A stretch of 64,000 nt of DNA from Comamonas sp. BIGb0152 (GTDB lineage Bacteria > Pseudomonadota > Gammaproteobacteria > Burkholderiales > Burkholderiaceae_C): assembly GCF_024809975.1 (NCBI RefSeq), contig NZ_JANUDY010000001.1, positions 682,001 through 746,000 on the forward strand, given 5' to 3'. Under the pieces are notes generated by a model. That model did no database searches and was not told the origin of the DNA. It saw only the letters and a list, made by a program, of their open reading frames with translations. A program made the position numbers and the translations under genes. Shown here piece by piece: positions 16,531-32,385 of the stretch (position 1 is its first letter; each line of letters begins with the position of its first letter).

Positions 16531-17700
16531 TCAAGCCGGTGCAAAACGCAGGCGAAACCGTGCCCCGCCTCCGGGCGCGCTTTCCGCATACGCCACCCCG
16601 CCTTGCAGTTCGGTCAGCGCATGGACAATGGACAGCCCCAGCCCCGAGCCCTCTCTTTTGCGGCGGCCCGGCGCCATCGCAAAACGCCTGAAGGGATGCG
16701 TGCGCAGCTCCGGCGGCAGGCCCGGCCCGGCATCGCTGACCAGCAGCTCGACCCAGATGTGCCCTTGCCCATCACGCATGGGGCGCACCTCCACCTCCAG
16801 CCAGCGGCCGCTGGCCGCATGGCGCACGGCATTGCCCACCAGGTTGGCAATGATCTGGCGCATGCGCAAAGGGTCGGCGCGGATGGCGCTGACGGCATCA
16901 TCCTCAGGCAGCACCTGCGACAGCGCCATCTCGGCCAGTTGCAACTGAGGCTGCAGCTCCTGCAGACTCTCGCGCACCAGCGCACCCAGGCTCAGGCGCT
17001 CCTTGCGCAGCGACATTTCACCGGCCTCGGCCATGGCCAGGGTGTGCAAATCATCGATCAAGCGGCCCAGATGCTCGGTCTGCGCCAGCAGCAGCCTAAA
17101 CTCCAGCTCGCTGGGCGCGATAACGCCATCGCACAGCGCATGCAAATGGGTCTTGAGCACCGACAAGGGCGTGCGCAGCTCATGCGAGATGGACGCCGCC
17201 GAGGCCTGGCGCTCGGCATTGAGTTTTTGCAGCGCATCGATCATGGCATTGAAGGTATGCACCACCTCCTTCAACTCCCCATGCGCGCCCTCTTCGACCA
17301 CACGCGTCGAGCTGAAATCCCCATGCGCCACGCGCTGCGCCACCTCCACCATCGACGCCAGCGGCCGCGTGATATAGCGCGAGACGAAAAAGCCCATGGC
17401 CAGGCCAAACGGCAGGCAGACCAGCAGGCCAATGAACAGCGACACCTGCTCGCCAAAGAACACCTCGCCACGCCAGTACTCGCCATAGATCTGCATGGCG
17501 CGCGGGCTGTTGTCCATGTCCCGGTCCATGAGATCGTCCAGCTCCACGCGCACGGACTCGGGCAGGCTTTGGTAGAACTGGTTGTACTGCACTGCATTGA
17601 AGGCCCAGGCGCAGGCGCTGAGCAGCGCAATGGTGCTGAGCAGGGTGCCGGCAATCCAGAAGCCAAAGCGCACCCAGATGCGGTTCAGTCCCCGGGCCAT
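16531..17700 (-). CDS. Two-component sensor histidine kinase
   Basis: A 389-aa inner-membrane kinase. It has one hydrophobic segment near residues 13-35, a short periplasmic part of about 50 residues, a second segment near 86-107, HAMP (YITRPLASMVEVAQRVAHGD), the H-box ASISHELRTPLS, the N-box NLVGNAVRHA, G1 DAGPGLP and G2 GSGLGLSIV. It overlaps the response regulator gene by 16 nt. The pair is divergent from the export operon starting at 18651, so it most likely controls that operon, as BaeSR-type systems control efflux genes. The signal cannot be read from the sequence. Confidence 0.92.
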   Translation of the reverse strand: MARGLNRIWVRFGFWIAGTLLSTIALLSACAWAFNAVQYNQFYQSLPESVRVELDDLMDRDMDNSPRAMQIYGEYWRGEVFFGEQVSLFIGLLVCLPFGLAMGFFVSRYITRPLASMVEVAQRVAHGDFSSTRVVEEGAHGELKEVVHTFNAMIDALQKLNAERQASAASISHELRTPLSVLKTHLHALCDGVIAPSELEFRLLLAQTEHLGRLIDDLHTLAMAEAGEMSLRKERLSLGALVRESLQELQPQLQLAEMALSQVLPEDDAVSAIRADPLRMRQIIANLVGNAVRHAASGRWLEVEVRPMRDGQGHIWVELLVSDAGPGLPPELRTHPFRRFAMAPGRRKREGSGLGLSIVHALTELQGGVAYAESAPGGGARFRLRFAPA

Positions 17701-18410
17701 AGGCGGTACCCAATGCTGCGCACGGTCTCGATCAGCTCCTCCTGGCCTGCCAGCTGCAGTTTGCGGCGCAGCTTGGACAGGTGCGAGTCAATCACCCGCT
17801 CCAGCGCGTCGCTCTCGGGCAAGCAATGCTCGATCAGCTGCGCACGCGAAAAACAACGCCGCGGCTGCGATGCCAGCAGGGCCAGCAGCCGAAATTCGGT
17901 CAGGGTCAGCGGCAGCGGCGTGGCCATGCCTTGCGCGTCATACACGCGGGCGCTGTGCGCGTCCGGGCTGATCTCCAGCGCCCCGACCCGGATCGGCGCC
18001 ATGGGCGCAGACGCGGCCTTGGGCTGGCTGCGGCGCAACACGGCCCGCACCCGCGCCACCACCTCGGCCGGATTAAAAGGCTTGACCACATAGTCATCCG
18101 CCCCCAGGCGCAAAGCCACCAGCTTGTCCACATCGTCGGCCAGCGCGGTCACCATGATCACCGGCGTCTGGCCCTGATCCCGGATAAAGCGCAGCACATC
18201 GACACCGTCCATGCCAGGCAAGTGAATATCGAGCAGCACCAGATCGGGCTGGTGCTGGCGAAAAAGCTGCACGGCCTGCTCACCATCGCGCGCATGCAGG
18301 CTGCGCAGGCCGTCGCGCTCCAGGTAGGCGACAAGAATCGTGGCGATTCCCGGCTCATCCTCCACGACGAGCACCAGCGGAACCGCCACCGGTGGAGTGG
18401 GTAGTTTCAT
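17685..18410 (-). CDS. OmpR-family response regulator
   Basis: A 241-aa protein with a receiver domain (LVLVVEDEPGI, phospho-acceptor Asp in LVLLDIHLPGMDG, switch Lys in VVKPFNPAEV) and a C-terminal winged helix (LTLTEFRLLALLASQPRRCFSRAQLIEHCLP... VIDSHLSKLRRKL). It is the partner of the overlapping kinase. The start lies 240 bp from the divergent export operon. An 18-bp perfect palindrome in that gap is a candidate binding site. Confidence 0.94.
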   Translation of the reverse strand: MKLPTPPVAVPLVLVVEDEPGIATILVAYLERDGLRSLHARDGEQAVQLFRQHQPDLVLLDIHLPGMDGVDVLRFIRDQGQTPVIMVTALADDVDKLVALRLGADDYVVKPFNPAEVVARVRAVLRRSQPKAASAPMAPIRVGALEISPDAHSARVYDAQGMATPLPLTLTEFRLLALLASQPRRCFSRAQLIEHCLPESDALERVIDSHLSKLRRKLQLAGQEELIETVRSIGYRLWPGD

Positions 18411-18546
18411 CGCGGACTGCTTCCAAAAATAGGGGCATGCGGCACAGCCTCAAAGGCGCGCACACGCTGTTGAAACAAGCCATTATGACCGTGCTGCCAG
18501 CCGGTTGCACGCCCTTGCCGCCTCCATGTTTTCTCCATCATTTGTG

Positions 18547-18564
18547 CAAGCTTGCGCAAGCTTG
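18547..18564. promoter_or_regulatory. Perfect 18-bp palindrome in the divergent promoter region
   Basis: CAAGCTTGCGCAAGCTTG is identical on both strands and consists of two CAAGCTTG units 10 bp apart. It lies 137 bp from the response regulator start and 87 bp from the outer membrane factor GTG. It could be the response-regulator operator for both operons. OmpR-type regulators usually prefer direct repeats near 10-11 bp, which the two units also satisfy. Confidence 0.5.
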
Positions 18565-18650
18565 GCGGGTTTGAATCAAGCGCATATTTGTCCCGCCTAT
18601 GCGGTCTGGCCACTGCGGTCAACACCGGCCTTGAACCGACTCCATTGCAC

Positions 18651-20075
18651 GTGAAACCCCTGTTCTGCAAAACACTGCTGCTGCTTGCCCCTGCTGCTTT
18701 GCTGGCCGGCTGCATGACGCCGCCGCAACCCCCGCTTGACCAAGACACCCCTGCGCAGTGGCGCCAGGCGGTCAGTGCAGGGGTCGATGCGCGCACCATC
18801 CGGGCTGCCGATTTGGCCAGCTGGTGGACGCTGCTGGCCGATCCGGCGCTGAACGCGCTGGTCGAGCAGGCCCTGGCCCAGAACCTGGACCTGGCCCAAG
18901 CGCTGGGCAGGCTCCAGGCGCAGCGCATTTTGCTGGGCATTGCCACTGCCGCCTACAAACCAGAAGTCAGCGCAGGCGTGCGGACCTTGCAAGACGTGGC
19001 CGCGCTGGACTCCTACTTCCATGCCAGCCTGGACGTGAGCTGGAACCCCGGCCTGTTTGGCGCCTATGAATCGAGCACGCTCGATGGCCAGGCGCAGCTG
19101 CTCAATGCCCAGGCACAGCTGCAGGCGGCCCAGGTCCAGCTGATCGCCAACGTGGTGCAGCGCTATCTGGAAATCCGTGTCGCACAGCAGCAGCGCTTTT
19201 GGCTGACGCAGCAGCAGCAACTGGACGCACGCCGCCAGCAGCTGCAGCAGCTGCGCGTGCAGCAGCACATCGGCAGCGCCGATCTGGTGCAGCAAGCCAG
19301 CCTGGAGCTGGCCCGCAGCCGCAGCCAGGAGGCAGACCTGCAACACCACCAGGCACGCGCAGCGCATGCACTGGCCGCGCTGCTGGGCCGCAGCGAACCC
19401 GATGGTGCCTGGTTGGCCCCCTCCTCGGCGCCCTCGCTGCCCGCCACCGCCGGGCTGAACCTGCAGGTGCTGCCCGCTGAGCTGCTGCGCCACCGCCCCG
19501 CCATCCTGGCGGCCGAAGCCGGTGTGCAGCGCGCCGCAGCCGCTGCCGGCCTGTCGCACTCGGCCCTGTATCCACGCTTTGCGTTGGGCGGCTCACTGCT
19601 CTACTCCTACAACCTGACGCAAAACCGGCGCTCCAGCTCCAACCACGTGCCCATGCTGGGCCCGGTGATCGACATCCCCCTGCTCGACTGGGGCCGCAGG
19701 CGCGCACAGGCCGATGCGGACGAGGTGCAGATGAACAACGCCGTCAAGGCATACCGGCAAAGCGTTCTGGACGGCATTGCCGAGGTGGAAACCGCGCTGG
19801 CGGGCCTGGCCGCCCAGCAGCAACGCCAGCAGTCGCTGGACACCCAAACCAGCTTGCTGCGCACACGCGCCCAGCAGTTGCAGCGCCGCCAGCAGCTGGG
19901 CCTGGCCAGCGAGCTCGACGCCATGGAGCCGCGCCGCCTGCTGCTGCTGCAGCAAAGCCAGCAAGGCGTCGCCCAGGCGGCGCAGGCACTGGCCTGGGTG
20001 ACGCTGTTCCAGGCCCTGGGTGGCGCCCCCCTGCCGCAGCAAGCCCTGCCTGGCGCAACCGGGCCCCTGCCATGA
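18651..20075 (+). CDS. TolC/NodT-type outer membrane efflux lipoprotein
   Basis: Outer membrane channel of a tripartite exporter. From the GTG at 18651 the 474-aa product begins MKPLFCKTLLLLAPAALLAGC, a lipoprotein signal peptide with LAGC lipobox (Cys21). The longer reading frame from a TTG at 18552 would bury this signal, so I reject it. Two OEP repeats with long amphipathic helices follow (WWTLLADPALNALVEQALAQNLDLAQA and RHRPAILAAEAGVQRAAAAAGLSHSALYPRF), as in NodT/CusC proteins. No clear Shine-Dalgarno sequence precedes the GTG. First gene of the operon; overlaps the permease start by ATGA. Confidence 0.9.
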   Translation: MKPLFCKTLLLLAPAALLAGCMTPPQPPLDQDTPAQWRQAVSAGVDARTIRAADLASWWTLLADPALNALVEQALAQNLDLAQALGRLQAQRILLGIATAAYKPEVSAGVRTLQDVAALDSYFHASLDVSWNPGLFGAYESSTLDGQAQLLNAQAQLQAAQVQLIANVVQRYLEIRVAQQQRFWLTQQQQLDARRQQLQQLRVQQHIGSADLVQQASLELARSRSQEADLQHHQARAAHALAALLGRSEPDGAWLAPSSAPSLPATAGLNLQVLPAELLRHRPAILAAEAGVQRAAAAAGLSHSALYPRFALGGSLLYSYNLTQNRRSSSNHVPMLGPVIDIPLLDWGRRRAQADADEVQMNNAVKAYRQSVLDGIAEVETALAGLAAQQQRQQSLDTQTSLLRTRAQQLQRRQQLGLASELDAMEPRRLLLLQQSQQGVAQAAQALAWVTLFQALGGAPLPQQALPGATGPLP

Positions 20076-21217
20076 TTGCCCTGGCACGCAAAACCCTAGT
20101 CTACGAATGGCGCCGCTTTGTGCCCTCGGTCTTTGCCGTGGGCTTTGCCGGTGTGTTGCTGGTCATGCAGGCGGCGCTGGTGCTGGGTATTTTCAGCTCG
20201 GCTGCCATTTACATCACGGCCAGCTCTGCCGACCTGTGGGTGGGCTACCCCGGCACACAAAGCGTGAACTTCGGCCGCAACATCGGCCCCGATGTGGAAA
20301 TGCGCCTGCGCACGGACCCGGATATCCGGGCCGTCGAGCCCTTCGTCTGGGTGGATGGCGACTGGCGTGCCAGCCAGGGCGCTGGCCAGACCGTGGGCGC
20401 GGTATCGGTCTACCTCTCGGGCATCTCCACCAGCAATACCGCCATGATGTTCGACCGCGTGATTGCGCCATGGCAGCGCAAGCTGCTGCGCGAACCCGGT
20501 GCCGTCATTGTTGACCGCGCCGACCTGGACAACCTCGCTAGCAGCGAAGGCGGCACCGCCTGGATCAACAACCAGCGCGTGCGGATCGTGGCCGCCGTCG
20601 ATGGCCTGCGTGGCCTGGGCGGCATCAATGTGCTGGCATCGCTGGAGAGCGCCCACCAGATCGCAGGCAGCTCGCCCAACCAGGGCAGCACCTATCTGCT
20701 GGCCCGGGTGCGCAAAGGCGCCGACAGCCATACTGTGCAGCAGCGCTTGAGCAGCGAAGCCCGCAGTTTTGGCCCACACGAGGTCTGGACCGCCAGTGCC
20801 TTTGCGCACCGTTCGCAGCGTTACTGGATGCTCGATACCGGCGCCGGCGCAGGTGTGCTGTTCATGGCCGTGGTCGTGTGCCTGGTGGGCGCCGTTGTCA
20901 CCAGCCAGTCGCTCAAAAGCGTGGTGGCGGGCTCGGTGCGCGAATACGCGGTGCTCAATGCCCTGGGCGTGAGCCGTGCCGCACTGGGCCGAATTGTGGT
21001 GGAGCAGGCCTGCTGGATCGGTGCTGCCGGCCTGCTGCTCACCAGCATCGCCAGCCTGGCCCTGGTCTCGGTGGCGCAGATCTACCGGGTGCCTGTTGCA
21101 CTCAACCTGCAAGCCGTGCTTGCCTGCGCTGCCTTGGTCGCCACCTTGGCCCTGTTGTCCGGCCTGGGTGCCATGCGCGTGCTGCTGCGCACCGACCCGG
21201 CCACCTTGCTGCGCTGA
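20072..21217 (+). CDS. FtsX-like ABC transporter permease (DevC/MacB type)
   Basis: A 381-aa inner-membrane protein. One N-terminal membrane helix (VFAVGFAGVLLVMQAALVLGIF) is followed by a large periplasmic MacB-core-like domain (about residues 45-260). Three more helices form the FtsX domain (GVLFMAVVVCLVGAVVTSQ, AGLLLTSIASLALVSV, VLACAALVATLALLSGLGAM), ending in DPATLLR, typical of DevC. This is the type VII/mechanotransmission ABC class. It pairs with the ATPase and HlyD-like adaptor downstream, so the complex resembles the glycolipid exporter DevBCA-TolC more than an RND pump. Confidence 0.9.
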   Translation: MIALARKTLVYEWRRFVPSVFAVGFAGVLLVMQAALVLGIFSSAAIYITASSADLWVGYPGTQSVNFGRNIGPDVEMRLRTDPDIRAVEPFVWVDGDWRASQGAGQTVGAVSVYLSGISTSNTAMMFDRVIAPWQRKLLREPGAVIVDRADLDNLASSEGGTAWINNQRVRIVAAVDGLRGLGGINVLASLESAHQIAGSSPNQGSTYLLARVRKGADSHTVQQRLSSEARSFGPHEVWTASAFAHRSQRYWMLDTGAGAGVLFMAVVVCLVGAVVTSQSLKSVVAGSVREYAVLNALGVSRAALGRIVVEQACWIGAAGLLLTSIASLALVSVAQIYRVPVALNLQAVLACAALVATLALLSGLGAMRVLLRTDPATLLR

Positions 21218-21228
21218 AAGACCTGCCC

Positions 21229-21951
21229 ATGCCCACCAGCGCCCTCTCCCCACCCAGCCTGCAGGCCGTTGGCTTGCGCAAGACCTATGTCTCGGGCGCT
21301 ATCCGCGTCCAGGTCCTGCAAGACCTGTCGGTGGATTTGTACTCCGGCGAGCTGACCTTGATCTCCGGTCCCTCGGGCTGCGGCAAAAGCACCTTGCTGT
21401 CCCTGCTCTCAGGCCTGCTCACCCCGGACCAGGGTGAGACCTTCGCCCTGGGCCAGAACCTGACGACCATGCCCCCCCGCGAGATGGAACGCTTTCGGCT
21501 GTTGCATACCGGCTTTGTGTTCCAGGGTTTCAACCTGTTTCCGGCGCTGACGGCCCTGGAGCAGGTGCAACTGCCGCTGGGCTACCTGGGCATACGGCGC
21601 AGCGAATCGCTGCGCCGCGCGCAGGACGCCCTCGAAGAAGTCGGCCTCACCCACCGCGCCCATATGCGGCCCGCCGAGCTGTCTGGCGGCGAGAAGCAAC
21701 GCGTGGCCATTGCCCGAGCCCTGGCCAAGGCGCCCCAGCTTTTGTTTGCCGACGAGCCGACCAGCGCGCTGGATGCCGAAAGCGGCCAGCGCGTGATCGA
21801 CATCCTCCATCGCGTTGCACGCAGCCACGGCAGCACCGTGCTGTGCGTCAGCCACGATCCGCGTCTGGTCGGCCACGCCGACCGGGTGCTGGACATGGAA
21901 GACGGCGCCGTGTACCGCGACCGACGCCAACCCACCGTGATAGAGAACTAA
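21229..21951 (+). CDS. ABC transporter ATP-binding protein (DevA/LolD type)
   Basis: A 240-aa nucleotide-binding subunit from the ATG at 21229. It has Walker A GPSGCGKST, Q-loop FVFQGFNLFPALTALEQV, signature LSGGEKQRVAIARAL, Walker B LLFADEPTSALDAESG and H-loop CVSHDPR. The longer reading frame from 20878 overlaps the permease and is rejected. The sequence is of the LolD/MacB/DevA clade, which works with FtsX-like permeases such as its upstream neighbour. It sits 11 nt after the permease stop and 3 nt before the adaptor gene. Confidence 0.93.
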   Translation: MPTSALSPPSLQAVGLRKTYVSGAIRVQVLQDLSVDLYSGELTLISGPSGCGKSTLLSLLSGLLTPDQGETFALGQNLTTMPPREMERFRLLHTGFVFQGFNLFPALTALEQVQLPLGYLGIRRSESLRRAQDALEEVGLTHRAHMRPAELSGGEKQRVAIARALAKAPQLLFADEPTSALDAESGQRVIDILHRVARSHGSTVLCVSHDPRLVGHADRVLDMEDGAVYRDRRQPTVIEN

Positions 21952-21954
21952 GCC

Positions 21955-22887
21955 GTGACCAAGACCTCCCCCACCCCTTTGTCTTCGCCGCATGCATGGC
22001 TGGCGCTGGGCCTGATCGGCATGGCAGCGCTGGGCTTGGTGGCATGCACGCCAGCCGCCGACAGCCCGCCTGTCAATACGGCCACCCAGCAGCAAAACCG
22101 CTCCCCGGTTGCCGTCGCCAGAGGAAAAATCGAAGTCGATGGCGGCCTGCTGAACCTGGCCAGCGCCATCGATGGCACGGTGCAGAAGGTCGCCGTCCGC
22201 GAGGGCCAGCAGGTGCAGGCCGGCCAGCTGCTGCTGAAAATCAACGACCAAGACCTGCGTGCCGAACTGGCCGTGGCCCAGTCTGCGCACCAACTGGCCC
22301 AGGCCAAGCACAAGGCGCAGGCTGCCAGGCTGCCGGCGCTGCAAACCCAGCTCAAGCGTTTGCAGGCCGCTGCACGCGATGGCGCCGCTGACATGCAGGA
22401 GGTCGACAACGCGCAGACCGCGCTGCGCAATGCGCAATCAGAGGCCGATGTAGCGCAGGCCGAGGTACAGCTGGCCCAGGCCAAAACGCAACAGTTGCGC
22501 GACCGCCAGCGCCTCTACCAGCTGAGCGCCCCGGAGGCAGCCACCGTGGTGCACCTGCATGCCCAGGTCGGCAGCCAGGTGCACACCAACCAGGCGACGA
22601 TGCGTTTGCTGCCGCAGCGCCCGCTGCGCATACGGGCAGAGCTCAACGAGAGCTTTGCCGGCGCGGTGCAAAAGGGCATGCGCGCCACGGTGGTGCTCGA
22701 CAACGACAGCGCCACCCCACTGCCCGAGGCCCGGGTGCTGCGCATCAACCCCATGTTTGGGCCCTCGGCGTTGCAGGACGATGCGCAGCGCGGGACGCTG
22801 CGCGTCGTCGAATGCGTGCTGGAATTTGAGGCCCCACCCGACAACCTGCGTGTGGGCCAGAACGTGAGAGTGAGCTTCCATGAATAA
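21955..22887 (+). CDS. HlyD-family periplasmic adaptor lipoprotein (DevB type)
   Basis: A 310-aa membrane fusion protein with a GTG start directly after the ATPase stop. The N-terminal hydrophobic stretch ends in LGLVAC, a probable lipobox (Cys31). A lipoyl half-motif (ASAIDGTVQKVAVREGQQVQAGQLLLKIND) precedes a coiled-coil hairpin of about 90 residues (ELAVAQSAHQLAQAKHKAQ... QLRDRQRLYQL) and the second lipoyl and beta-barrel parts (PLRIRAELNESF). It would link the ABC complex to the TolC-like channel. The last 8 nt overlap the HAD phosphatase gene. Confidence 0.9.
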   Translation: MTKTSPTPLSSPHAWLALGLIGMAALGLVACTPAADSPPVNTATQQQNRSPVAVARGKIEVDGGLLNLASAIDGTVQKVAVREGQQVQAGQLLLKINDQDLRAELAVAQSAHQLAQAKHKAQAARLPALQTQLKRLQAAARDGAADMQEVDNAQTALRNAQSEADVAQAEVQLAQAKTQQLRDRQRLYQLSAPEAATVVHLHAQVGSQVHTNQATMRLLPQRPLRIRAELNESFAGAVQKGMRATVVLDNDSATPLPEARVLRINPMFGPSALQDDAQRGTLRVVECVLEFEAPPDNLRVGQNVRVSFHE

Positions 22888-23590
22888 ACACATCCTTTGG
22901 CAAGCGCCCGCTTGCCGCAACGCGGCCGGCTGGATGGTCCAGTCCGATTTTGACGGCACGATCAGCGTGGTCGATGTCACCGACAGCTTGCTGCAGCGTT
23001 TTGGCATGGCCGGCTGGACCGCCTTGGAAGCCGCCTGGGAGCGGGGCGACATCGGCTCGCGCGCCTGCATGCAAGGCCAGGTGGCGCTGCTGGACATGAG
23101 CCAGCAAGAGCTGGATGCGCACCTGGACGGCATTGCCATCGACCCCGGTTTTGCCGGCTTTGCACAAGCGGCACAGGCCCTGGGCCTGCAGGTGCAAGTG
23201 GTCAGCGACGGCATCGACTACGCCATCCAGCATGTGCTGGCGCGCCACGGCCTGGGCCACCTGGAGGTGGTGGCCAACCGCCTGGTGCAGTTGGACACCC
23301 GCCGCTGGGCACTGGATTCGCCCTGGGCCAGCCCGCACTGCAAACGCGCCAGCGGCAACTGCAAATGTGAGCGCCTGGCCGCGCAGCATACCCAGGCTAC
23401 GCGGGTACTCTATGTGGGCGACAGCAGCTCGGATTTCTGCGTCTCGCACCAGGCCGACTATGTGTTCGCCAAGTACCGGCTGATCGACCACTGCGAGCGC
23501 CATGGCATTGCCCATGCGCCTTTTCACAGCTTCAGCGATGCCACGCCCTTGCTGACGCAGTTCATGCAGCAGCAGGAGATCGCGGCATGA
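22880..23590 (+). CDS. HAD-IB (MtnX/SerB-like) phosphatase
   Basis: A 236-aa soluble haloacid-dehalogenase phosphatase. Motif I is SDFDGTIS (nucleophile and acid Asp), motif II lies near QVVSDGIDY, and motif IV is YVGDSSSDFCVSHQADYVFAK. The region FGMAGWTALEAAWERGDIGSRACMQGQ resembles MtnX, the methylthioribulose-pathway phosphatase, but no methionine-salvage gene is nearby. Given its overlap with the adaptor and hydrolase genes, it more likely dephosphorylates an intermediate of the linked pathway. The substrate is unknown. Confidence 0.82.
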   Translation: MNKHILWQAPACRNAAGWMVQSDFDGTISVVDVTDSLLQRFGMAGWTALEAAWERGDIGSRACMQGQVALLDMSQQELDAHLDGIAIDPGFAGFAQAAQALGLQVQVVSDGIDYAIQHVLARHGLGHLEVVANRLVQLDTRRWALDSPWASPHCKRASGNCKCERLAAQHTQATRVLYVGDSSSDFCVSHQADYVFAKYRLIDHCERHGIAHAPFHSFSDATPLLTQFMQQQEIAA

Positions 23591-24465
23591 GTTCCGCCCT
23601 CGATATGCTGTGTCTAACGCCCCATGAATTCGTCATGCCGGGCTCCGGCGCCGCCGCGCGTACCGGCGTACTGCTGGTGCATGGCCTGACCGGCACCCCG
23701 GCCGAAATGCGCTTGCTCGCCAAGGGCCTCAACCGCGAGGGCTTTACCGTCTATGCGGTGCAACTGGCCGGCCACTGCGGCAGCATGCAGGACCTGGTCC
23801 GCACCCGCTGGACCGACTGGCTGGCCAGTGTGCAGTCCGCATTGCTGCGCTTTGCCCCGCATGTCGACCGGGTGGTGGTGGGTGGCCTGTCGATGGGGGC
23901 CTTGCTGTCGCTCGCGGTGGCCGCCTCGCATCCGCGCCAGGTGGCAGGGGTGGCGGCGCTGTCCACCACCTTCCGCTATGACGGCTGGAGCATTCCGCGC
24001 TACACCAAGCTGGCCTTTCTACTGCCGCTTTTTCGCCTGTTGGGCATTGGCCGCCACCGCGTGTTCATGGAAGCGCCGCCCTATGGCATCAAGGACGAGG
24101 CCTTGCGCGCAAGGGTGGTCGCACAAATGCACAGCGGCGACAGCGCTGCGGCCGGCCTGCCCGGCAACCCCTGGTGGTCCATCATCGAGCTGCGCCGGCT
24201 CTCTGCCCATGTCCGCGCCCACCTGCCTGATTTGCGTGCCCCCTGTCTGGCCATCCACGCTAGAGAGGACGATATCTCCCACCTCTCCAATGCCCAGGAC
24301 ATTGCCACCGGCGCGGTCCATGCGCAGGTCGAGGTCGTGCTGCTGGACAACTGCTACCACATGATCACCATCGACCGCGAGCGCCGCACGGTGATCGCCA
24401 AGGTGCATGACTTTGTGGTTCGCATTGGCGGCACGCCAGCACAGGCGGCCGCATATGGGCAGTGA
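23587..24465 (+). CDS. Alpha/beta hydrolase (carboxylesterase/lipase-like)
   Basis: A 292-aa protein with the oxyanion motif VLLVHGLTGTPAEM, nucleophile elbow GGLSMG (catalytic Ser), a late acid in AIHAREDDISH and His in DNCYHMITID. This is the Est30/monoacylglycerol-lipase type. There is no signal peptide, so it is cytoplasmic. Overlaps both neighbours (ATGA upstream; 11 nt downstream), pointing to a tightly coupled operon. It may act as an acyl hydrolase or transferase on the pathway product; the substrate is unknown. Confidence 0.85.
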   Translation: MSSALDMLCLTPHEFVMPGSGAAARTGVLLVHGLTGTPAEMRLLAKGLNREGFTVYAVQLAGHCGSMQDLVRTRWTDWLASVQSALLRFAPHVDRVVVGGLSMGALLSLAVAASHPRQVAGVAALSTTFRYDGWSIPRYTKLAFLLPLFRLLGIGRHRVFMEAPPYGIKDEALRARVVAQMHSGDSAAAGLPGNPWWSIIELRRLSAHVRAHLPDLRAPCLAIHAREDDISHLSNAQDIATGAVHAQVEVVLLDNCYHMITIDRERRTVIAKVHDFVVRIGGTPAQAAAYGQ

Positions 24466-24829
24466 GATCACGCCCCTGGTGATCAGCCTGTGGCTGATCA
24501 ATGTGCTGGTCGACAGCGGCGGGCAGTTGGCCTTCAAGGCCGCTGCCAGCCAGACCCCGAGCACGGCCACCGGCATGGCGCACTGGCGCTTCATGATGGC
24601 GCGGCCCTGGATCTGGATCGGCGGGGCCTGCTACGTGGTTGAATTTATCGCCTGGCTGGCCTTCTTGTCGCTGGTACCGCTGTCCGACGGCGTGCTGCTG
24701 GGCAGCATCAATATCGTGGCCATCATGGTGGCCGGGCGCCTCTTTTTCCAGGAAAAGCTGGCACCCATGCGGGTAGCGGGCATCGTGCTGGTCTCCATCG
24801 GCGTGGCCGTGGTGGGCCTCAAGGGGTGA
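24455..24829 (+). CDS. Small EamA/SMR-type membrane protein, first of a pair
   Basis: A 124-aa protein from the ATG at 24455, overlapping the hydrolase gene. It has four predicted membrane helices (LVISLWLINVLVDSGGQLAF; IWIGGACYVVEFIAWLAFLSLV; GVLLGSINIVAIMVAGRLFF; VAGIVLVSIGVAVVGL). The GQLAFKAA motif is shared with SMR and ArnE/ArnF proteins, which act as paired half-transporters for undecaprenyl-phosphate sugars or drugs. The partner gene follows after 4 nt. Specificity is not readable. Confidence 0.8.
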   Translation: MGSEITPLVISLWLINVLVDSGGQLAFKAAASQTPSTATGMAHWRFMMARPWIWIGGACYVVEFIAWLAFLSLVPLSDGVLLGSINIVAIMVAGRLFFQEKLAPMRVAGIVLVSIGVAVVGLKG

Positions 24830-24833
24830 TGGC

Positions 24834-25268
24834 ATGAAGCGCTTCTACATCGTGGGCTTTCTGGTGCTGATGGCCTTCGACACCCTGGCCCAGCTGAGCT
24901 TCAAGAAAGCGGGCGATGCCGCACTGCCGCTGGAGTTCAGCCCTTCATGGCTCTGGCGGGTGTTTGCCCAGCCCTGGATCTATGGCGCCTTGATCGGCTA
25001 TATCGGCGCCTTCTTCACCTGGATGCATCTGCTGCGGCGCGCGCCTGTCGGCCCCGCTTTTGCCGCCTCGCACCTGGAGATCATCTCCGTGATGGTGCTG
25101 TCCCATTACCTGTTCCAGGAGAACATCGGCATGCCTCAGATACTGGGCTGCGTATTCATCGTTGCCGGCATTGCCTGCCTGGCGATGAGCGAAGCCCAGG
25201 ACCATGGCGCCGCCGAGCCTACTGACCCGGCAGACAGGGCTGGGGGCGCCAGCGCGCCCGCACGCTGA
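24834..25268 (+). CDS. Small EamA/SMR-type membrane protein, second of a pair
   Basis: A 144-aa protein with four membrane helices and the AQLSFKKAG motif, parallel to GQLAFKAA in its neighbour, then a hydrophilic tail rich in Ala and Pro. The residues WMHLLRRAPVGPAFAASHLEIISVMVLS resemble the last helices of ArnE/F and SMR proteins. I infer a heterodimer with the preceding product, flipping a small or lipid-linked compound across the inner membrane. Confidence 0.8.
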   Translation: MKRFYIVGFLVLMAFDTLAQLSFKKAGDAALPLEFSPSWLWRVFAQPWIYGALIGYIGAFFTWMHLLRRAPVGPAFAASHLEIISVMVLSHYLFQENIGMPQILGCVFIVAGIACLAMSEAQDHGAAEPTDPADRAGGASAPAR

Positions 25269-25296
25269 TGGCATTGACCGGCCAGGGGCACAGGCG

Positions 25297-26535
25297 ATGA
25301 CAGCGCACCGCATCTCCGTCCCACCCACCGCAGGCCTGGCGCTGCGTTGGTCCGATCTGCGCCCCTGGGGCGACGCGCGTCTGGACCGGGCGCTGGCCGC
25401 CTGGCTGGGTGTGGACGATGTGCTGCTGGAATGCTCCGGCACCTCGGCGCTGACGCTGGCACTGCGCACTCTGCGGCAGCTGGCGCCCGATCGCTGCGAG
25501 GTGGTAGTACCCGCCTATACCTGCCCCTTGGTGGCGCTGGCTGTGGCCCAGTGTGGCCTGCAGCTGCGCCTATGCGATCTGTCGCCCGATGCACTGGATA
25601 TGGATAGCAGCCCACTGCATGCGCTGATAAGCCACCGCACCCTTGCCGTGGTGCCCACCCACCTGGGTGGCCGTGTCGCCGATGTTGCCAGCGTGCTGCC
25701 CCGCGCCCAGGCCTGCGGCGCCTATGTGATCGAAGACGCCGCCCAGGCGCTGGGCGCCAGCGTGCAAGGGCGCAGCGTGGGCTTGCAGGGCGACATCGCG
25801 CTGTTCAGCCTGGCCGTGGGCAAAGGCCTGTCCACCTATGAAGGTGGCGTGCTGCTGGCACGCGACCCCGCGCTGATGGCGGTGCTGCGTGCGCAGCACC
25901 AGCAATCGATACGGCCCCACCTGGGCTGGGAGCTGCGCCGCAGCCTGGAACTGCTGGGCTATGCCGCCGCATTCCGGCCCGCCTTGCTCGATCTTGTCTA
26001 TGGCGCGCCGCTGCGCCGCAGCCTGGCACGGGGCGCCTGGGTGGAGGCGGCCGGCGATGATTTCGACAGCCATATCCCGCAGCACAGCCTGGGGGCCTGG
26101 CGCCAGCGCGTCGGCCTGCGCGCGCTGGCGCGGCTGCGCACGCACTGGGCGCATGCACACCAGCAGGCGCAGCGGCGCATCGCCCAGCTGCGCGCCCTGC
26201 CCGGCTTAGAGGTGCTGGGCGATACCGCCCCACAGGCACAGGGCATCTGGCCGGTGATCTTGCTGCGCCTGCCCAGTGCCGCCCAGCGCGATGCGCTGAT
26301 GCGGGCGCACTGGGCCAGTGGCTGGGGCCTGTCGCTGCCCTTCAGCCACATCCTGCCCGACTACGCGCGCTACGCGCCCCTGCTGGGAGACGCCGTGCAC
26401 GACCCGGTGCCACAGGCGCGCGACTGGGCGCAGCGCCTGCTGGCCATCAGCAACAGCGCCTGGCTCAGCGATGCACTGTTTGCCCAGTTGCTGGACGCGT
26501 TGAAGCAGACAAGGCCGCCATCAGCCGCTGGTTGA
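25297..26535 (+). CDS. DegT/DnrJ/EryC1/StrS-type PLP aminotransferase
   Basis: A 412-aa PLP enzyme from the ATG at 25297; the upstream extension overlaps the transporter gene and is rejected. Family features are SGTSALTLALRTL, VVVPAYTCPLVALAVA, VIEDAAQALGA and the PLP-lysine region FSLAVGKGLSTYEGG. These enzymes aminate keto-sugars on nucleotide carriers, or related carbonyl compounds. The C-terminal third diverges from sugar aminotransferases such as ArnB. Last gene of the plus-strand operon; its 3' end overlaps the convergent arginase-like gene by 71 bp. Confidence 0.85.
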   Translation: MTAHRISVPPTAGLALRWSDLRPWGDARLDRALAAWLGVDDVLLECSGTSALTLALRTLRQLAPDRCEVVVPAYTCPLVALAVAQCGLQLRLCDLSPDALDMDSSPLHALISHRTLAVVPTHLGGRVADVASVLPRAQACGAYVIEDAAQALGASVQGRSVGLQGDIALFSLAVGKGLSTYEGGVLLARDPALMAVLRAQHQQSIRPHLGWELRRSLELLGYAAAFRPALLDLVYGAPLRRSLARGAWVEAAGDDFDSHIPQHSLGAWRQRVGLRALARLRTHWAHAHQQAQRRIAQLRALPGLEVLGDTAPQAQGIWPVILLRLPSAAQRDALMRAHWASGWGLSLPFSHILPDYARYAPLLGDAVHDPVPQARDWAQRLLAISNSAWLSDALFAQLLDALKQTRPPSAAG

Positions 26536-27379
26536 ATGCATGCTGCCCTGCTTGCGCCTGGGCCAGCGTCTGCGCGTTGATCGCCGTGTCCTGGCCATCG
26601 CCGGCACTCAGCCAGCGCTTCCACCAGGTGGCATAGCGCCAAGACGAGATATCGCCGGTGACATCGCTGCCCACCAGCTGACCGCCCAGGGCCGCCATGA
26701 TGCGCAGCGCCTGCGCCTCACGCATCTGGCCCTGGTCCCAGTTGGTGGTCACCACATCGGGGGCAAACACATCCTTGTCGATGCTGAGGTAGCTGCTCTC
26801 GCGCGCAGTGGCCAGGACGGCGGTCAAGGCATCGACCAGGCCATCCATGCTGTCAAACGCGCGGAAGGCAGCCGCCATGCCCAGCCGCCGCGCCCAGCCC
26901 GTGTCCACGCCGCAGCTCCAGTAGCTGAGCTTGCCGGCGCGCAGCGGGCCCAGGTAGTTCTCCCAGGCGTGGCCCGCGCCAATGTCCTGCGAGGTGATGC
27001 CCGCCACATGCACATGCGATACCGCCGGGTGCATGGCAATGCGCCGCACCCAGGAGCCGCAATGCACACCCCAGGGAAAGCGCATGTTGTCGGGGTGGTT
27101 GTCCAGCACCACCACGCGCAGCGGGCGTGCCGCCGTAAAGCCCTGGCGGGCGATGCAATGCGTGATCAGCAGCCAGGAGAGGTGGTGAAAATCGCCGCTC
27201 CCCATCCAGGCCGTGCCATGCTGCGCCGGCAGCTGGGCCTGTACATGGCGGCTAAAACGCTGGTAGACACCCAGCGATGCCCCAAAGCGGATGGCGTCCT
27301 GCCAGTCGCCCAGCGGCAGACGCAGCTCCCCGGCCAGCGGGCCGACGGAGCCATCGACATCCAGCACCAAGGGCTTCAT
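26465..27379 (-). CDS. Arginase/ureohydrolase-fold protein
   Basis: A 304-aa protein from the ATG at 27379. Divergent versions of the three metal-binding signatures of the arginase family are visible: GSGDFHHLSWLL (like GGDHS), VVLDNHPDNM (like DxHxD) and YLSIDKDVFAPD (like SxDxDxxDP). Most metal ligands (His, Asp) are retained, so hydrolase activity on a guanidino, amidino or acyl-amino compound is plausible, but it is not a standard arginase or agmatinase. The start overlaps the stop of the upstream acyltransferase gene by ATGA. Last gene of a three-gene minus-strand operon. Confidence 0.75.
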   Translation of the reverse strand: MKPLVLDVDGSVGPLAGELRLPLGDWQDAIRFGASLGVYQRFSRHVQAQLPAQHGTAWMGSGDFHHLSWLLITHCIARQGFTAARPLRVVVLDNHPDNMRFPWGVHCGSWVRRIAMHPAVSHVHVAGITSQDIGAGHAWENYLGPLRAGKLSYWSCGVDTGWARRLGMAAAFRAFDSMDGLVDALTAVLATARESSYLSIDKDVFAPDVVTTNWDQGQMREAQALRIMAALGGQLVGSDVTGDISSWRYATWWKRWLSAGDGQDTAINAQTLAQAQAGQHAFNQRLMAALSASTRPATGQTVHR

Positions 27380-28443
27380 CGCTGCTCCTGCCATGCACGG
27401 TCACTTTCAAAATGCCGGGAAAAACGCCGCCCCAAGGCCCGCAGCACCGGGTTGCGGATGTAGACCGCATGCTGGGTGAACGTGAAGCTGGCGCCCAATT
27501 GCGCCTTGACTTCGGGGTCGGTCCAGCCGGCGACATAGTGTGACAGGCCGCATTCCAGCGCATATTCCAGATTGACCATCCAGCTGACGAAATACAGATT
27601 GGTCTGGCGGGCACGCGGGTAGGACAGGCCGATGTATTTGTCGACCAGCCGGCCGTCATGCGCAAAACACAGGTTCCAGCCCAGCAAGGCACCATCCTGC
27701 GCATCGCGGTACTCAAAGACAAGGCCCTGGTTGGCGGCATCGCGCAGCACCGCCGCAAAAAAGCTGCGCGTGAGCTTGTCGAAATGCAGCGCGCTTTGCG
27801 CATACACGGCTTCGAACAGCGCGTAGTAGGCATCGACCAGGGCATCGTCGGCAAAGGCTGGGCCGGTGGGAATGCGGCGGATCTGCAATTCGTTGCGGCT
27901 CTTGAGCTTGCGGCGCAGGTCGGAGCGCCGGTTCTTCGACAGCCGCGCCAGGTAGGCATCGATGCTCTCGAAATCGATAGGCACATAGGCCAGCGCCTGG
28001 CCGTCCACCAGGATAAAGCCCTCATGCTGGAGCGCCTGGGCCAGCCGGTGGGCATCCGCATTGTCGGCCGGGGGCAGCAACGGGGAGGCCTGTGGCAAGT
28101 CCTTGACGATGGTCAGCATGCAGCGCCCCGCATGGCGGCACAACTGGGCCGCCAGCCTGTCCATGTCCACATCCGGGGGCAGCACCAGGTACTCGCTCAG
28201 GGTCGAGCCTACAAAATCGGTCCGCAACCGCAGCCGCCGTGACAGCCAGGCACCCCCGGGCCATTGCAGGATGCGGCGTTTGACGGTGTCATCGGCGGTG
28301 GTCAGCAGATCGAAGGGTGCACGAAAGGCCGGAAAAGGCCGGTCCGAGCGCACCGCAAAGCCTTGCGGCGGATGCGCGGCAAACTGCCGGATCAGCGCAG
28401 AGGGCTCCAACTGGTTGCGCGAGGGACGCAGGGGCTCGTCCAA
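27376..28443 (-). CDS. FemAB/BioF2-like GNAT acyltransferase
   Basis: A 355-aa protein of the GNAT superfamily, FemAB-related (acetyltransferase_6 type). The C-terminal GNAT core includes LSKNRRSDLRRKLKSRNELQIRRI, YALFEAVYAQSALHFDKLTRSFF and GALLGWNLCFAHDGRLVDKYIGLSY. Such proteins transfer acyl or aminoacyl groups to amines in capsule, peptidoglycan and lipid pathways. The best start is a TTG at 28443, 2 nt after the preceding stop, probably by translational coupling; an internal start is not excluded. Confidence 0.78.
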   Translation of the reverse strand: MDEPLRPSRNQLEPSALIRQFAAHPPQGFAVRSDRPFPAFRAPFDLLTTADDTVKRRILQWPGGAWLSRRLRLRTDFVGSTLSEYLVLPPDVDMDRLAAQLCRHAGRCMLTIVKDLPQASPLLPPADNADAHRLAQALQHEGFILVDGQALAYVPIDFESIDAYLARLSKNRRSDLRRKLKSRNELQIRRIPTGPAFADDALVDAYYALFEAVYAQSALHFDKLTRSFFAAVLRDAANQGLVFEYRDAQDGALLGWNLCFAHDGRLVDKYIGLSYPRARQTNLYFVSWMVNLEYALECGLSHYVAGWTDPEVKAQLGASFTFTQHAVYIRNPVLRALGRRFSRHFESDRAWQEQR

Positions 28444-28445
28444 GC

Positions 28446-29822
28446 TCAGGACCGCTTGGCCAGGCTGATCAGCTGGTCGAGCAGCACCAGCGCTTCATCG
28501 ATCTCGCTGCGGCTGATCATCAGCGACGGCGCGAAGGTGATCACGTTCTTGTAGTAGCCGCCCACGTCCAGCACCAGGCCGCGTTTTTGGCCCTGGTACT
28601 CCAGCTTGCCTTCCAGGCCCAGGTCCACCATCTTGTCCAGCAGTGCCTTGTTGGGGGTAAAGCCATCGGCCGTGCAGATCTCGGCGCGCAGCGCCAGGCC
28701 CATGCCATCGACATCGCCGATCTCCGGGTGGCGCTTTTGCAGCTGCTGCAGACCATCGAGGAAATAGGCCCCCGATTCGCGCACCTGGCGGCCAAAGTCC
28801 ATCTCGTGGGTCATCCGCATGACCTCCAGGCCCAGGGCGGTGCCCAGCGGGTTGGCGGCAAAGGTCGAGTGGGTCGAGCCTGGCGGGAAGACGGTCGGGT
28901 TGATCAGTTCCTCACGCGCCCACAGCCCAGACAAGGCGTTCAGACCATTGGTCAGCGCCTTGGCAAACACCAGCACATCGGGCTTGACGCCAAAATTCTC
29001 TACCGACCACAAGGTGCCGGTGCGCCAAAAGCCCATCTGGATCTCATCGACCACCAGCAGCACGCCATGGTCGTCGAGCACTTTCTTGAGGCCGTTGAAG
29101 AAATTGGGCGGTGGCACCACATAGCCACCGGTGCCCTGGATGGGCTCCACATAGAAAGCCGCGTACTCGCACTGCTGGGTCTTGGGGTCCCAGACGGCGT
29201 GGTATTCGTTCTCGAACTTGCGCGCAAACTCCTGCACGATGGCGTCCGCATACTCTTCGGACGTCATGCCCTTGGGCCGGCGGAAGGGGTAGGGAAAGGG
29301 GATGAACTGCGCGCGGTCGCTGAAGTGGCCAAAGCGGCGGCGGTAGCGGTAGCTGGAGGTGATGCTGGAGGCCCCCAGGGTGCGGCCGTGGTAGCCGCCC
29401 TCAAAGGCAAACATCAGGCTTTTGCCGTTGGTGGCATTGCGCACCACCTTGAGCGAGTCTTCAATCGCCTGGGCCCCGCCCACGTTGAAGTGCACACGGC
29501 CTGGCAGGCCCCATTTTTTCTCGGCATCCTGCGCGATGAACTTGGCCAGTTCGATCTTGGTGGGGTGCAGGTACTGGCTGGCGACCTGGGGCAGCTCACG
29601 CAGCTGCTCGATCATCTTGTCTTCCAGACGCTTGTTCTTGTAGCCGAAGTTGACGGCCGAGTACCACATCTGCAAGTCCAGGTAGGGCGTGCCCGTCTGG
29701 TCATACATGTAGCTGCCTTCGCAGCCGGTAAAGATCTTGGGAGGATTGACGTAATGGACAGTGTCGCCAAAAGAGCAGTATTGGGCTTCGTCAGCCAGCA
29801 GTTGTTCGGTGTTGAGGGTCAC
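28446..29822 (-). CDS. Class III (omega-amino) PLP aminotransferase
   Basis: A 458-aa fold-type I aminotransferase from the GTG at 29822, which has a GGAG 9 nt upstream. Visible features: YLDLQMWYSAVNFGYKN, FNVGGAQAIEDSLKVVRNAT, the aromatic-ring stacking region FEGGYHGRTLGASS, VEPIQGTGGYVVPP, LLVVDEIQMGFWRTG, the PLP lysine in VFAKALTNGLNALSG, and THSTFAANPL. Relatives use omega-amino substrates such as ornithine, lysine, GABA or diaminobutyrate. The linked acyltransferase and arginase-fold genes suggest an amine-building pathway rather than central metabolism. Substrate not assignable. Confidence 0.85.
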   Translation of the reverse strand: MTLNTEQLLADEAQYCSFGDTVHYVNPPKIFTGCEGSYMYDQTGTPYLDLQMWYSAVNFGYKNKRLEDKMIEQLRELPQVASQYLHPTKIELAKFIAQDAEKKWGLPGRVHFNVGGAQAIEDSLKVVRNATNGKSLMFAFEGGYHGRTLGASSITSSYRYRRRFGHFSDRAQFIPFPYPFRRPKGMTSEEYADAIVQEFARKFENEYHAVWDPKTQQCEYAAFYVEPIQGTGGYVVPPPNFFNGLKKVLDDHGVLLVVDEIQMGFWRTGTLWSVENFGVKPDVLVFAKALTNGLNALSGLWAREELINPTVFPPGSTHSTFAANPLGTALGLEVMRMTHEMDFGRQVRESGAYFLDGLQQLQKRHPEIGDVDGMGLALRAEICTADGFTPNKALLDKMVDLGLEGKLEYQGQKRGLVLDVGGYYKNVITFAPSLMISRSEIDEALVLLDQLISLAKRS

Positions 29823-30033
29823 GGCGCAAGGCTCCAGATTTGAGTCCCGCAAGTCTGGCTTCGCAATGTTGTGGCTCAGCCTACGTTGTTTGTAGGATTG
29901 ATGGAGATCTTGCCCGCTTCATGGACGACTGCCTCGGCCCGGTTTGGTGCTGGCTGGCGCACGGTGTACCATGATTGCCAACCATGGCCGCCCGACGGGC
30001 GGCCGCCGCACTTTGGCCCTTGGCCCCTTCTCC

Positions 30034-30657
30034 ATGAATAGTCCTCAAAAACGTTTTTCGATGATCCGCGAGTTCCACCTCGCCGACTGGTTCACCTTGG
30101 GCAATGCCGTCTGCGGCGTGGGCGCGCTGTTCTCGGCGATGACCTTTTTGGAAACCGCTGACCGCCGGCATATCTACTTTGCAGCCGCCCTGGTGCTGGC
30201 GGCGCTGGTGTTCGATGTCTTTGATGGCCGCATTGCCCGTTGGCGGCAGAAATCATCGGCCATGGGGCGCGAGCTCGATTCGCTGGCGGATGTGATCTCG
30301 TTCGGTGTGGCGCCCGCCATCATTGCTTACGCCTGCGGCATGCAAGGCCTGTGGGACCGTATCGTGCTGGGTTACTTCGTGGCCTGTGGCGTGTCGCGCC
30401 TGGCGCGCTACAACGTCACGGCGGAGTCGCTGTCCGAGGGGCCATCGGGCAAGGTGAAGTACTTTGAAGGCACCCCCATCCCCACCTCCATCGTGCTGGT
30501 GGCGCTGTTGGCGCTGGCCGCTGCGATGAATGCGGTGCGCGCCGACCTGTGGATGGGCAAGGTGCTGATTGCGGGCTTTACCCTGCACCCGCTGGTGCTG
30601 CTGTTTGCGGTGTCGGGCTCGCTGATGATCAGCCGCATCCGGATTCCTAAGCTCTAA
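30034..30657 (+). CDS. pssA: CDP-diacylglycerol:serine O-phosphatidyltransferase (PssA)
   Basis: Membrane enzyme that makes phosphatidylserine, the precursor of phosphatidylethanolamine. The 207-aa protein carries the full CDP-alcohol phosphatidyltransferase signature D-G-x2-A-R-x8-G-x3-D-x3-D (FDGRIARWRQKSSAMGRELD then SLADVISFG) and about six hydrophobic helices. I prefer the ATG at 30034 (MNSPQKRF) to the upstream frame from 29944; an ATG at 30061 is also possible. No strong Shine-Dalgarno sequence precedes either. Transcribed divergently from the aminotransferase operon. Confidence 0.9.
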   Translation: MNSPQKRFSMIREFHLADWFTLGNAVCGVGALFSAMTFLETADRRHIYFAAALVLAALVFDVFDGRIARWRQKSSAMGRELDSLADVISFGVAPAIIAYACGMQGLWDRIVLGYFVACGVSRLARYNVTAESLSEGPSGKVKYFEGTPIPTSIVLVALLALAAAMNAVRADLWMGKVLIAGFTLHPLVLLFAVSGSLMISRIRIPKL

Positions 30658-30687: not shown

Positions 30688-32385
30688 TCACATCCCGCGA
30701 ATATGCTCCACATGCGCCAGCAGTGACCGCTTGGCCACCGGCCACAGCCGCTCTGGCGTATCGGCATAGGCGATGGCCACCCAGTCCTCCGGTGTGCCGT
30801 CCGGCGCTTGGGCCATGGCCTTGCGCACCTTCTCTTCCCGCGCCATGCGGTGCGCATGCAGCTTGGCAATCACCTGCAGCGGCTGGGCCAGCACATAGCC
30901 GTGGGCCGGCAGGATAAAGCCGATCTGGCCTTGCTCGCAGGCCTGGGCCAGCTTGGCGAGCGATGCCAGATACAGGCGCATATTGCCATCGGGCGGATCC
31001 ACCACCGTGGTGCTGCCGTTCAAGATATGGTCGCCGCTGAACAGCAGGCCGTCTTCTTCCAGCACCAGGCAGACATGGTTGGCCGCATGGCCGGGCGTGT
31101 GCAGCACGCGCAGGCTGTGGCTGCGCGCGGGGTCGGTGGGATGCGCCAGTGACAGCACCTGACCATCCTGCAATTCCTGGTCCGGCCTGAACTGGCTGCC
31201 GGCCCGTGCGGTGCAGGCCGACGACAGCCCCCAGATCAGCGGCTTGCTGCGGCCGGTTTGGGCCACCAGCGCCTGCAGCGGCGCAGCCGCTGGGGAATGG
31301 TCGGCATGCGAATGGGTGCAGACGATGGCGCGGATATCGCCACCGGTGGCGGCCAGGATGCGCGCCAGGTGCGGGTCGTCCTGCGGCTGCGGCTTGGGGC
31401 CGGGGTCGAGCACGATAAAGCCCGTCTCGGCGTCGCCGATCAGGTAGGTATTGGTGCCTGGCCCGGTCATGGTGCCGCCGTTGTCCGCCGTCAGGCGTTG
31501 CACATTCTTGCGCAGCGGCACCGGCTGCGCACTCTGCCAGCCGAGCACATGGTGCAGCTGTCCATCAGGGCAGACCATGGCCAGCTCGCCATAGGCGCTC
31601 TCATGCTCCATAAAGCGCCGCACTTCGCCATCCACCACCGCGCCACGCGGCATGGACTGCCACAGCCATTGGCCCGGCTGCACCTGTTGCAGCGCCTGCA
31701 GCACATCGAGCAGGGCCTGCACCGTCGGGTAGGCGGCCAGGCGCTCCAGGGTGACGCGGGTGGGGAACATCACCGTCATGCGCCCCTCGGCCGCATGCTG
31801 CAAGGCCTGCGCAGGGTGTACCCACAGGGCCTCGAACTGTTCGCTGTCATCGGTCACCGCCTCCTGCCCCTCGGGCATGCGCGCCACGAAAAAGGGCACA
31901 TCGAAGCGGATGGGTATCTCCTGCGCGGCCGTCCAGCGCGCCAGCGGCCACAGGGCATCGGCTGCCAAGCTCAGCCCCAGCGCCGCGCATTGGGGCAGCA
32001 AGGGCTGGCTGCGGTCCATGCCGGCCACCTCGGCCTGGCTGGCCCAGCGGCCATCGGCATGGCGGGCCAGCAGCACGCCCATCTCCTCCAGGCTCTCGCG
32101 GATGGCGGCCTGGGCGTAGGTCAGCTCCTCAGCGGTCTGCGCCGTGCGCCGCGCCAGCTGGTCGTGGTTTTGCGCATCGGCCGCATCGACGGAGCCGCCG
32201 GGGAACACATAGTGCCCGGCCGCAAAACGCGCCTTGTCGGAGCGGCGCGACATCAGCACTTCCAGGCGGGTGGCACCCGGCCCCGCCTGCGGGTCTGGTG
32301 CATCGCGCAGGAACAAGGCGGTGGCGGCTGCACGGGCCGGCACGGGCTCGCGTTGCACATGGAGTAGCTGGCTGGTTCGGGTCAT
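30688..32385 (-). CDS. Nudix hydrolase fused to a metallo-beta-lactamase-fold hydrolase
   Basis: A 565-aa two-domain protein (ATG at 32385; an ATG at 32394 is equally possible). The N-terminal 250 residues are a NUDT19-like Nudix domain, with FPGGSVDAAD separated by an insert from AAIRESLEEMGV, the split Nudix box of that subfamily. The C-terminal half is an MBL-fold domain of the LACTB2/glyoxalase II group with HSHADHS, the GPGTNTYLIGD lead-in, the metal His in TPGHAANHVCLV and SGDHIL, then a winged-helix-like tail. NUDT19 relatives cleave CoA or acyl-CoA and LACTB2-type MBLs cleave thioesters or RNA. The substrate here is unknown. Confidence 0.88.
   Translation of the reverse strand: MTRTSQLLHVQREPVPARAAATALFLRDAPDPQAGPGATRLEVLMSRRSDKARFAAGHYVFPGGSVDAADAQNHDQLARRTAQTAEELTYAQAAIRESLEEMGVLLARHADGRWASQAEVAGMDRSQPLLPQCAALGLSLAADALWPLARWTAAQEIPIRFDVPFFVARMPEGQEAVTDDSEQFEALWVHPAQALQHAAEGRMTVMFPTRVTLERLAAYPTVQALLDVLQALQQVQPGQWLWQSMPRGAVVDGEVRRFMEHESAYGELAMVCPDGQLHHVLGWQSAQPVPLRKNVQRLTADNGGTMTGPGTNTYLIGDAETGFIVLDPGPKPQPQDDPHLARILAATGGDIRAIVCTHSHADHSPAAAPLQALVAQTGRSKPLIWGLSSACTARAGSQFRPDQELQDGQVLSLAHPTDPARSHSLRVLHTPGHAANHVCLVLEEDGLLFSGDHILNGSTTVVDPPDGNMRLYLASLAKLAQACEQGQIGFILPAHGYVLAQPLQVIAKLHAHRMAREEKVRKAMAQAPDGTPEDWVAIAYADTPERLWPVAKRSLLAHVEHIRGM

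Follow-up and report, generated by a model that had tools for sequence, protein, structure and literature searches.

What is made by the compact group of genes at positions 16531-29852 of the stretch of Comamonas DNA analysed here (64,000 nucleotides, referred to below as the window), and where does the product go? The preliminary description of this DNA proposed a small amine-containing, perhaps lipid-linked, secreted molecule. The reading preferred here, to which we give roughly an even chance of being right, is that these genes direct the synthesis and export of a lipid bearing an amine. What is read from sequence is the gene set, how it co-occurs in relatives, the predicted folds and the conserved catalytic positions. 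The features of the locus, with the names used in the text, are as follows.

16531..17700, minus strand: HK, sensor histidine kinase, BaeS/AdeS-like (below the BaeS and AdeS cut-offs)
17685..18410, minus strand: RR, OmpR-type response regulator, AdeR-like (252.6 bits against a cut-off of 340)
18542..18561, no strand: candidate regulator-binding site, a 10-bp direct repeat TTGTGCAAGC/TTGCGCAAGC in the RR-OMF gap
18651..20075, plus strand: OMF, TolC/NodT-type outer-membrane lipoprotein (Pfam/NCBIfam; start and lipobox by eye)
20072..21217, plus strand: FtsX-type permease, DevC-like (Pfam/NCBIfam)
21229..21951, plus strand: ABC ATPase, DevA/LolD-like (Pfam/NCBIfam)
21955..22887, plus strand: HlyD-type periplasmic adaptor, probable lipoprotein (Pfam/NCBIfam)
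22880..23590, plus strand: HAD, MtnX-like HAD-IB phosphatase (TIGR01489, above cut-off)
23587..24465, plus strand: ABH, alpha/beta hydrolase (Pfam and nearest solved structures)
24455..24829, plus strand: Eam1, SMR/EamA half-transporter, predicted N-out (Pfam/NCBIfam, charge bias)
24834..25268, plus strand: Eam2, SMR/EamA half-transporter, predicted N-in (Pfam/NCBIfam, charge bias)
25297..26535, plus strand: DegT-family PLP aminotransferase (Pfam; alternative start 25204 possible)
26465..27394, minus strand: Arg, arginase-fold protein with invariant metal-ligand positions (Pfam just below cut-off; fold)
27376..28443, minus strand: Fem, tandem-GNAT transferase, FemAB_like (Pfam; fold nearest the FemX/MprF catalytic domain)
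28446..29852, minus strand: AT3, class III PLP aminotransferase, highly conserved (Pfam, alignment)

The ORF reading of the window gives 14 open, tightly packed genes at 16531-29852, where twelve had been counted earlier; every gene described then is present and open. The HK/RR pair is on the minus strand at the left end, the genes from OMF to DegT follow on the plus strand, and AT3, Fem and Arg lie opposite them on the minus strand, forming the convergent group already recognised. Overlaps are found between RR and HK (16 bp), OMF and FtsX (4), HlyD and HAD (8), HAD and ABH (4), and Arg and Fem (19), Fem and AT3 are separated by 2 bp, and 71 bp are shared by the 3' ends of DegT and Arg. The start of OMF is most likely the GTG at 18651, judged by eye from a signal peptide and LAGC lipobox; the TTG at 18552, which gives the longest ORF, sits inside a palindromic repeat.

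An extra CDP-alcohol phosphatidyltransferase at 29944-30657 (PssA model, 110.2 bits against 107) is divergent from AT3. It is treated as a neighbour and not as a pathway gene, since just 3 of 80 loci (the best of 180, see below) have it next to AT3 and since the genome encodes another homologue (38% in the search) at a different place, G000:C3:127383, between ORFs reading like ilvC and leuA. The window also holds a protein in which NUDIX and metallo-beta-lactamase domains are fused (30688-32409), and a CobW-family GTPase with a long His/Asp-rich stretch (14195-15340), likely a metal chaperone.

Conservation of the gene set was scored in 80 named loci, these being the best 80 of 180 found through Fem; in 60 of the 80, about 10 kb of sequence is available to either side. 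Among these 60, Arg is found in 60, Eam1, Eam2 and ABH in 52 each, DegT in 48, AT3 in 44 and HAD in 40; HlyD (39), ABC and FtsX (36 each) and OMF (35) have counts that are limited by the flanks. Absence of co-localisation had been named beforehand as the outcome that would speak against a common pathway; the enzymes, half-transporters and exporter are in fact found together in relatives, with all 12 structural genes in 30 of the 60 loci. Loci of other families and classes hold the set too, which makes it more than a chance arrangement. Smaller sets also occur among the best 80: 12 Dyella loci have six of the genes (Fem, Arg, DegT, Eam1, Eam2 and ABH) with a ketosynthase, four loci have AT3, Fem and Arg alone, and three have Fem and Arg alone. 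Whole-genome searches of 8 genomes with Fem loci that are without AT3 located AT3 elsewhere in all 8. The second site consists of HAD, AT3 and the entire exporter in the three Dyella genomes examined, and showed AT3 and HAD only in one Rhodanobacter genome. ABH was likewise found elsewhere, at 54-76% identity, in 9 of 9 genomes with sparse loci.

The Fem profile matched 45 of 398 proteobacterial genomes drawn, 24 of them strongly (E <= 1e-16) and 21 weakly. Of the 24 strong-Fem genomes 23 have AT3 (E <= 1e-80), and of the 21 weak ones none does, counts which take in related, non-independent genomes; the exception, G696, has Eam-Eam-Fem without AT3. The weak matches (E > 1e-7) were set aside as probably other GNAT proteins, since AT3 is missing from all of their genomes. 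In the other direction, AT3 was found in 21 of 299 genomes, 18 of which also have Fem. No Fem was found in G206, G588 and G694, which have AT3, and one of these still has an otherwise recognisable cluster (L200). In G588, a 54%-identical AT3 is followed by a sulfotransferase-family gene (L207, 8912-11232). Several distant genomes have Fem and AT3 on separate contigs.

The nearest named relatives are in Comamonas (Fem 91-93% and AT3 96-97% identity). The distribution of Arg is patchy: it is found in 16 of 200 genomes of the same family, the host's own included, and a genome from the host's genus, in the same draw, lacks it. Across the class the Arg profile was found in 3 of 369 genomes, which is too rare in this draw to map, and distant Arg forms may escape it. 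Co-occurrence had been suggested as a check within Burkholderiales; co-localised relatives do exist, but they are not limited to that order, and extend to Rhodanobacteraceae, Xanthomonas, Pseudomonas, Rhizobium, Agrobacterium, Bartonella and Roseomonas. Plasmid-borne relatives of Fem or AT3 are found in Xanthomonas sacchari, Bartonella, Roseomonas, Rhizobium and Agrobacterium. On the plasmid of Bartonella sp. HY328 (L106, 14466-20515), AT3-Fem-Arg adjoins MBOAT and AlgX-like genes, and HAD, ABH, Eam and exporter genes were not found within 33 kb.

Other genes vary from locus to locus. Among the best 80 of the 180 loci, KS and ACP genes share the locus with Fem in 35 and a CMAS-type methyltransferase does so in 16, with both in none; Pfam confirmed one example each of KS, ACP and CMAS-type, and also a fatty acid desaturase found in a single Rhizobium locus. 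The order ACP-KS-HAD-AT3-ABH recurs in distant genomes. KS/ACP are absent from the cluster in the window, DegT and KS/ACP are absent from the Agrobacterium and Rhizobium stretches read, and no arginase was found within the distant AT3 stretches L201-L206 and L209. We read this gene content as a constant head-group set combined with an exchangeable chain-tailoring set. The Roseomonas cluster has a different class III aminotransferase (24% identical), and genome G781 has two different Fem genes in two places (L163 and L210) with one AT3 match, which may feed two products.

AT3 is the most conserved gene, with 54-93% identity to the window among 30 family members aligned and 67-78% for 34 plasmid copies, the next matches listed being at about 32%. 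It belongs to PF00202 (Aminotran_3; 243.8 bits against 30.5), and the column of the PLP lysine is kept in the aligned sequences listed. In all 31 AT3-family sequences with letters at the position, Thr is found where four listed PDB relatives have Arg. We take that arginine to be the ligand of the donor carboxylate in 2-oxoglutarate-type class III aminotransferases, a type whose arginine AT3 thus lacks. The host's own paralogue L005 has the Arg and its paralogues L002-L004 do not; because three own paralogues are also without it, Thr alone does not set the substrate of AT3. HAD matches TIGR01489 (MtnX-like HAD-IB; 92.1 bits against 81.55) and misses the MtnX equivalog (68.4 against 303.2), its nearest solved structure being 2fea. 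A parallel to such a pair is the RtxA route, in which an aminotransferase turns dihydroxyacetone phosphate (DHAP) into serinol phosphate, which is then dephosphorylated to serinol (PMC3222319, from the passages available). The likeness is to the RtxA N-terminal domain, in the serinol branch of rhizobitoxine synthesis: AT3 adjoins a HAD phosphatase, and purely by analogy the two could carry out the same two steps.

Fem matches FemAB_like (PF04339) over part of the profile (39.6 bits against 27), and also Acetyltransf_6. Because direct sequence searches of the PDB gave no credible match for Fem and no match at all for Arg, folds were compared instead. The tandem-GNAT fold of Fem is closest to the FemX/MprF group, and its structure model ranks nearer aminoacyl-tRNA-type enzymes, so that on the modelled fold it is a putative aminoacyl-tRNA-dependent transferase. 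A second, canonical PF04339 protein is encoded in the host genome at G000:C3:144484-145638 (456.5 bits, against 39.5 for Fem). Arg scores 21 bits against 22 for PF00491, which its counterparts in Agrobacterium (43.5) and Roseomonas (33.8) pass; the arginase fold and the di-metal ligand motifs are present, which place it in the arginase/ureohydrolase superfamily, with guanidine hydrolysis as its putative reaction. DegT belongs to the DegT Pfam family, and ABH to Hydrolase_4, with monoacylglycerol lipases and Est30 as nearest solved structures.

Of the two half-transporters, Eam2 scores above the EamA/SMR Pfam cut-off of 28.2 bits (36.5) and Eam1 below it (22.8). With loops assigned by eye on the window proteins, all 75 Eam1 sequences carry more K+R in loops 1 and 3, and Eam2 has the opposite bias in 50 of 76, with 14 ties and 12 like Eam1; the mean charge differences for Eam2 are weak. 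The opposite mean bias suits an antiparallel pair, with modest strength.

An amine-containing product, as originally suggested, fits the two PLP aminotransferases and the arginase-fold enzyme, and the product is probably a lipid, which fits the KS/ACP, CMAS-type methyltransferase or desaturase genes of relatives. A lipid-linked sugar, raised at the same time, is not favoured, because Pfam and NCBIfam identify no glycosyltransferase among the 14 genes; a glycolipid product was rejected on the same count.

The pathway that we infer, in its reactions, substrates, order and product, would begin with AT3 and HAD turning a phosphorylated keto precursor into a small amino head group, for example dihydroxyacetone phosphate into serinol. 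Fem, with its FemX/MprF fold, would join an aminoacyl (or acyl) group to the head group, Arg and DegT would tailor the nitrogen part, the lipase-like ABH would trim or transfer acyl groups, and in some relatives dedicated KS/ACP, CMAS-type or desaturase genes would tailor the chain. The lipid would be flipped over the inner membrane by Eam1/Eam2, which together with Fem would form a split MprF in function, and the FtsX/ABC/HlyD/OMF machine, under two-component control, would carry it to the outer membrane or the medium.

The alternative that survives best, possible though doubtful, is an N-acyl amino alcohol or ceramide-like lipid, in which Fem would use a fatty acyl group from acyl-ACP or acyl-CoA, as bacterial ceramide synthase or N-acyl-serinol synthases do, and not an amino acid from tRNA. 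Against this stand the ranking of the Fem model nearer aminoacyl-tRNA-type enzymes, the lack of any alpha-oxoamine-synthase-type Pfam match among the 14 genes, and the lack of KS/ACP in the window cluster and in the Agrobacterium and Rhizobium stretches read. It is unlikely that the product is instead a small soluble secreted amine, such as a pseudo-peptide or antimetabolite, with the lipid genes of relatives marking only a variant or the addition of a tail: the Eam pair and the lipase-like ABH are each kept in 52 of 60 loci (from the best 80 of 180), and distant genomes with KS/ACP have AT3 next to HAD and ABH. A generic drug efflux pump and regulator that adjoin unrelated nitrogen-metabolism genes by coincidence would suit HK and RR, which are most like the BaeS/AdeS and AdeR efflux regulators, but is very improbable and was rejected, given that 35-39 of 60 loci (from the best 80 of 180) have the exporter genes together with the enzymes, and given the split yet complete sets of three Dyella genomes, in which the exporter has relocated along with HAD and AT3.

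The preferred reading of an exported amine-bearing lipid includes regulation by HK (Pfam HATPase_c/HAMP/HisKA) and RR (Response_reg/Trans_reg_C). The two-component system ascribed to the locus is indeed present in the window, but is not a constant partner: among the 60 loci (from the best 80 of 180), RR is found at 50% identity or more in 12 and HK at 40% or more in 5, many of the flanks of about 10 kb stopping before the place of RR and limiting the HK count likewise. Near several distant clusters there are two-component genes of other kinds, an observation to be read without a background rate. The repeat at 18542-18561, between the divergent regulator and exporter genes, is also a palindrome, TTGTGCAAGCTTGCGCAAGC. 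It is identical in the three closest relatives (L025-L027) and matches at 11-16 of 20 positions in 14 more distant loci. As full conservation is confined to those three, an operator bound by the regulator is a guess from the sequence.

If the preferred reading is right, a proteobacterial lipid or lipid-like metabolite of wide but uneven distribution, served by a flippase and an exporter of its own, has so far gone undescribed. Carriers of the cluster's relatives include plant symbionts and soil and water genera. Each family is known; the combination was not found described in searches of open-licence PMC papers (passages of PMC11334938, PMC12789092 and PMC11165876 among them). Taxonomic descriptions of Dyella and Luteibacter, in the parts available, note unidentified aminolipids, and both genera have members with this cluster. 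This is a lead and not evidence, because the strains described may not themselves carry the cluster and descriptions of this kind often mention aminolipids.

The proposed pathway can be compared with several known systems. Bacterial sphingolipid synthesis (Spt, bCerS, CerR) resembles it, according to the available passages of PMC11087976 and PMC11324152, in its amine-bearing backbone, cytoplasmic N-transfer, dedicated ACP and outer-membrane destination. It differs in that no serine palmitoyltransferase (Spt)-type gene is recognised by Pfam among the 14 cluster genes; those passages name no family for bCerS that could relate it to Fem. The exporter had been likened to the glycolipid exporter DevBCA-TolC. 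Its architecture is alike, with an FtsX-type permease (FtsX), a DevA/LolD-type ATPase (ABC_tran), an HlyD adaptor (HlyD_3) and a TolC-type channel (OEP) encoded side by side in the window, but the NCBIfam cut-offs for DevC (50.3 against 290.35 bits), DevA (223.2 against 295.8) and DevB (42.3 against 129) are missed, and the 14 genes have no glycosyltransferase to supply a glycolipid. The half-transporters similarly resemble ArnE/ArnF and other SMR pairs in being two adjacent short EamA/SMR proteins of opposite mean charge bias, so that this part of the earlier comparison stands; they are, however, far under the cut-offs for ArnF (99; Eam1 28.1, Eam2 26 bits) and ArnE (92; Eam1 24.2, Eam2 22.6). 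A more specific and decidedly less probable proposal than the exported aminolipid itself is that Fem and Eam1/Eam2 form a split, SMR-based counterpart of MprF that uses Arg-tRNA to arginylate a new serinol-type aminolipid, that Arg converts the arginyl into an ornithinyl lipid in place, and that tripartite export takes it to the cell surface, making this a new tRNA-dependent aminolipid class of alpha-, beta- and gammaproteobacterial lineages. Compared with the aminoacyl-phosphatidylglycerol synthase/flippase MprF and with FemX/FemA, to which Fem is 8-16% identical, the arrangement would differ in dividing the work of one fused protein between a soluble, free-standing Fem (355 aa) and SMR-like halves.
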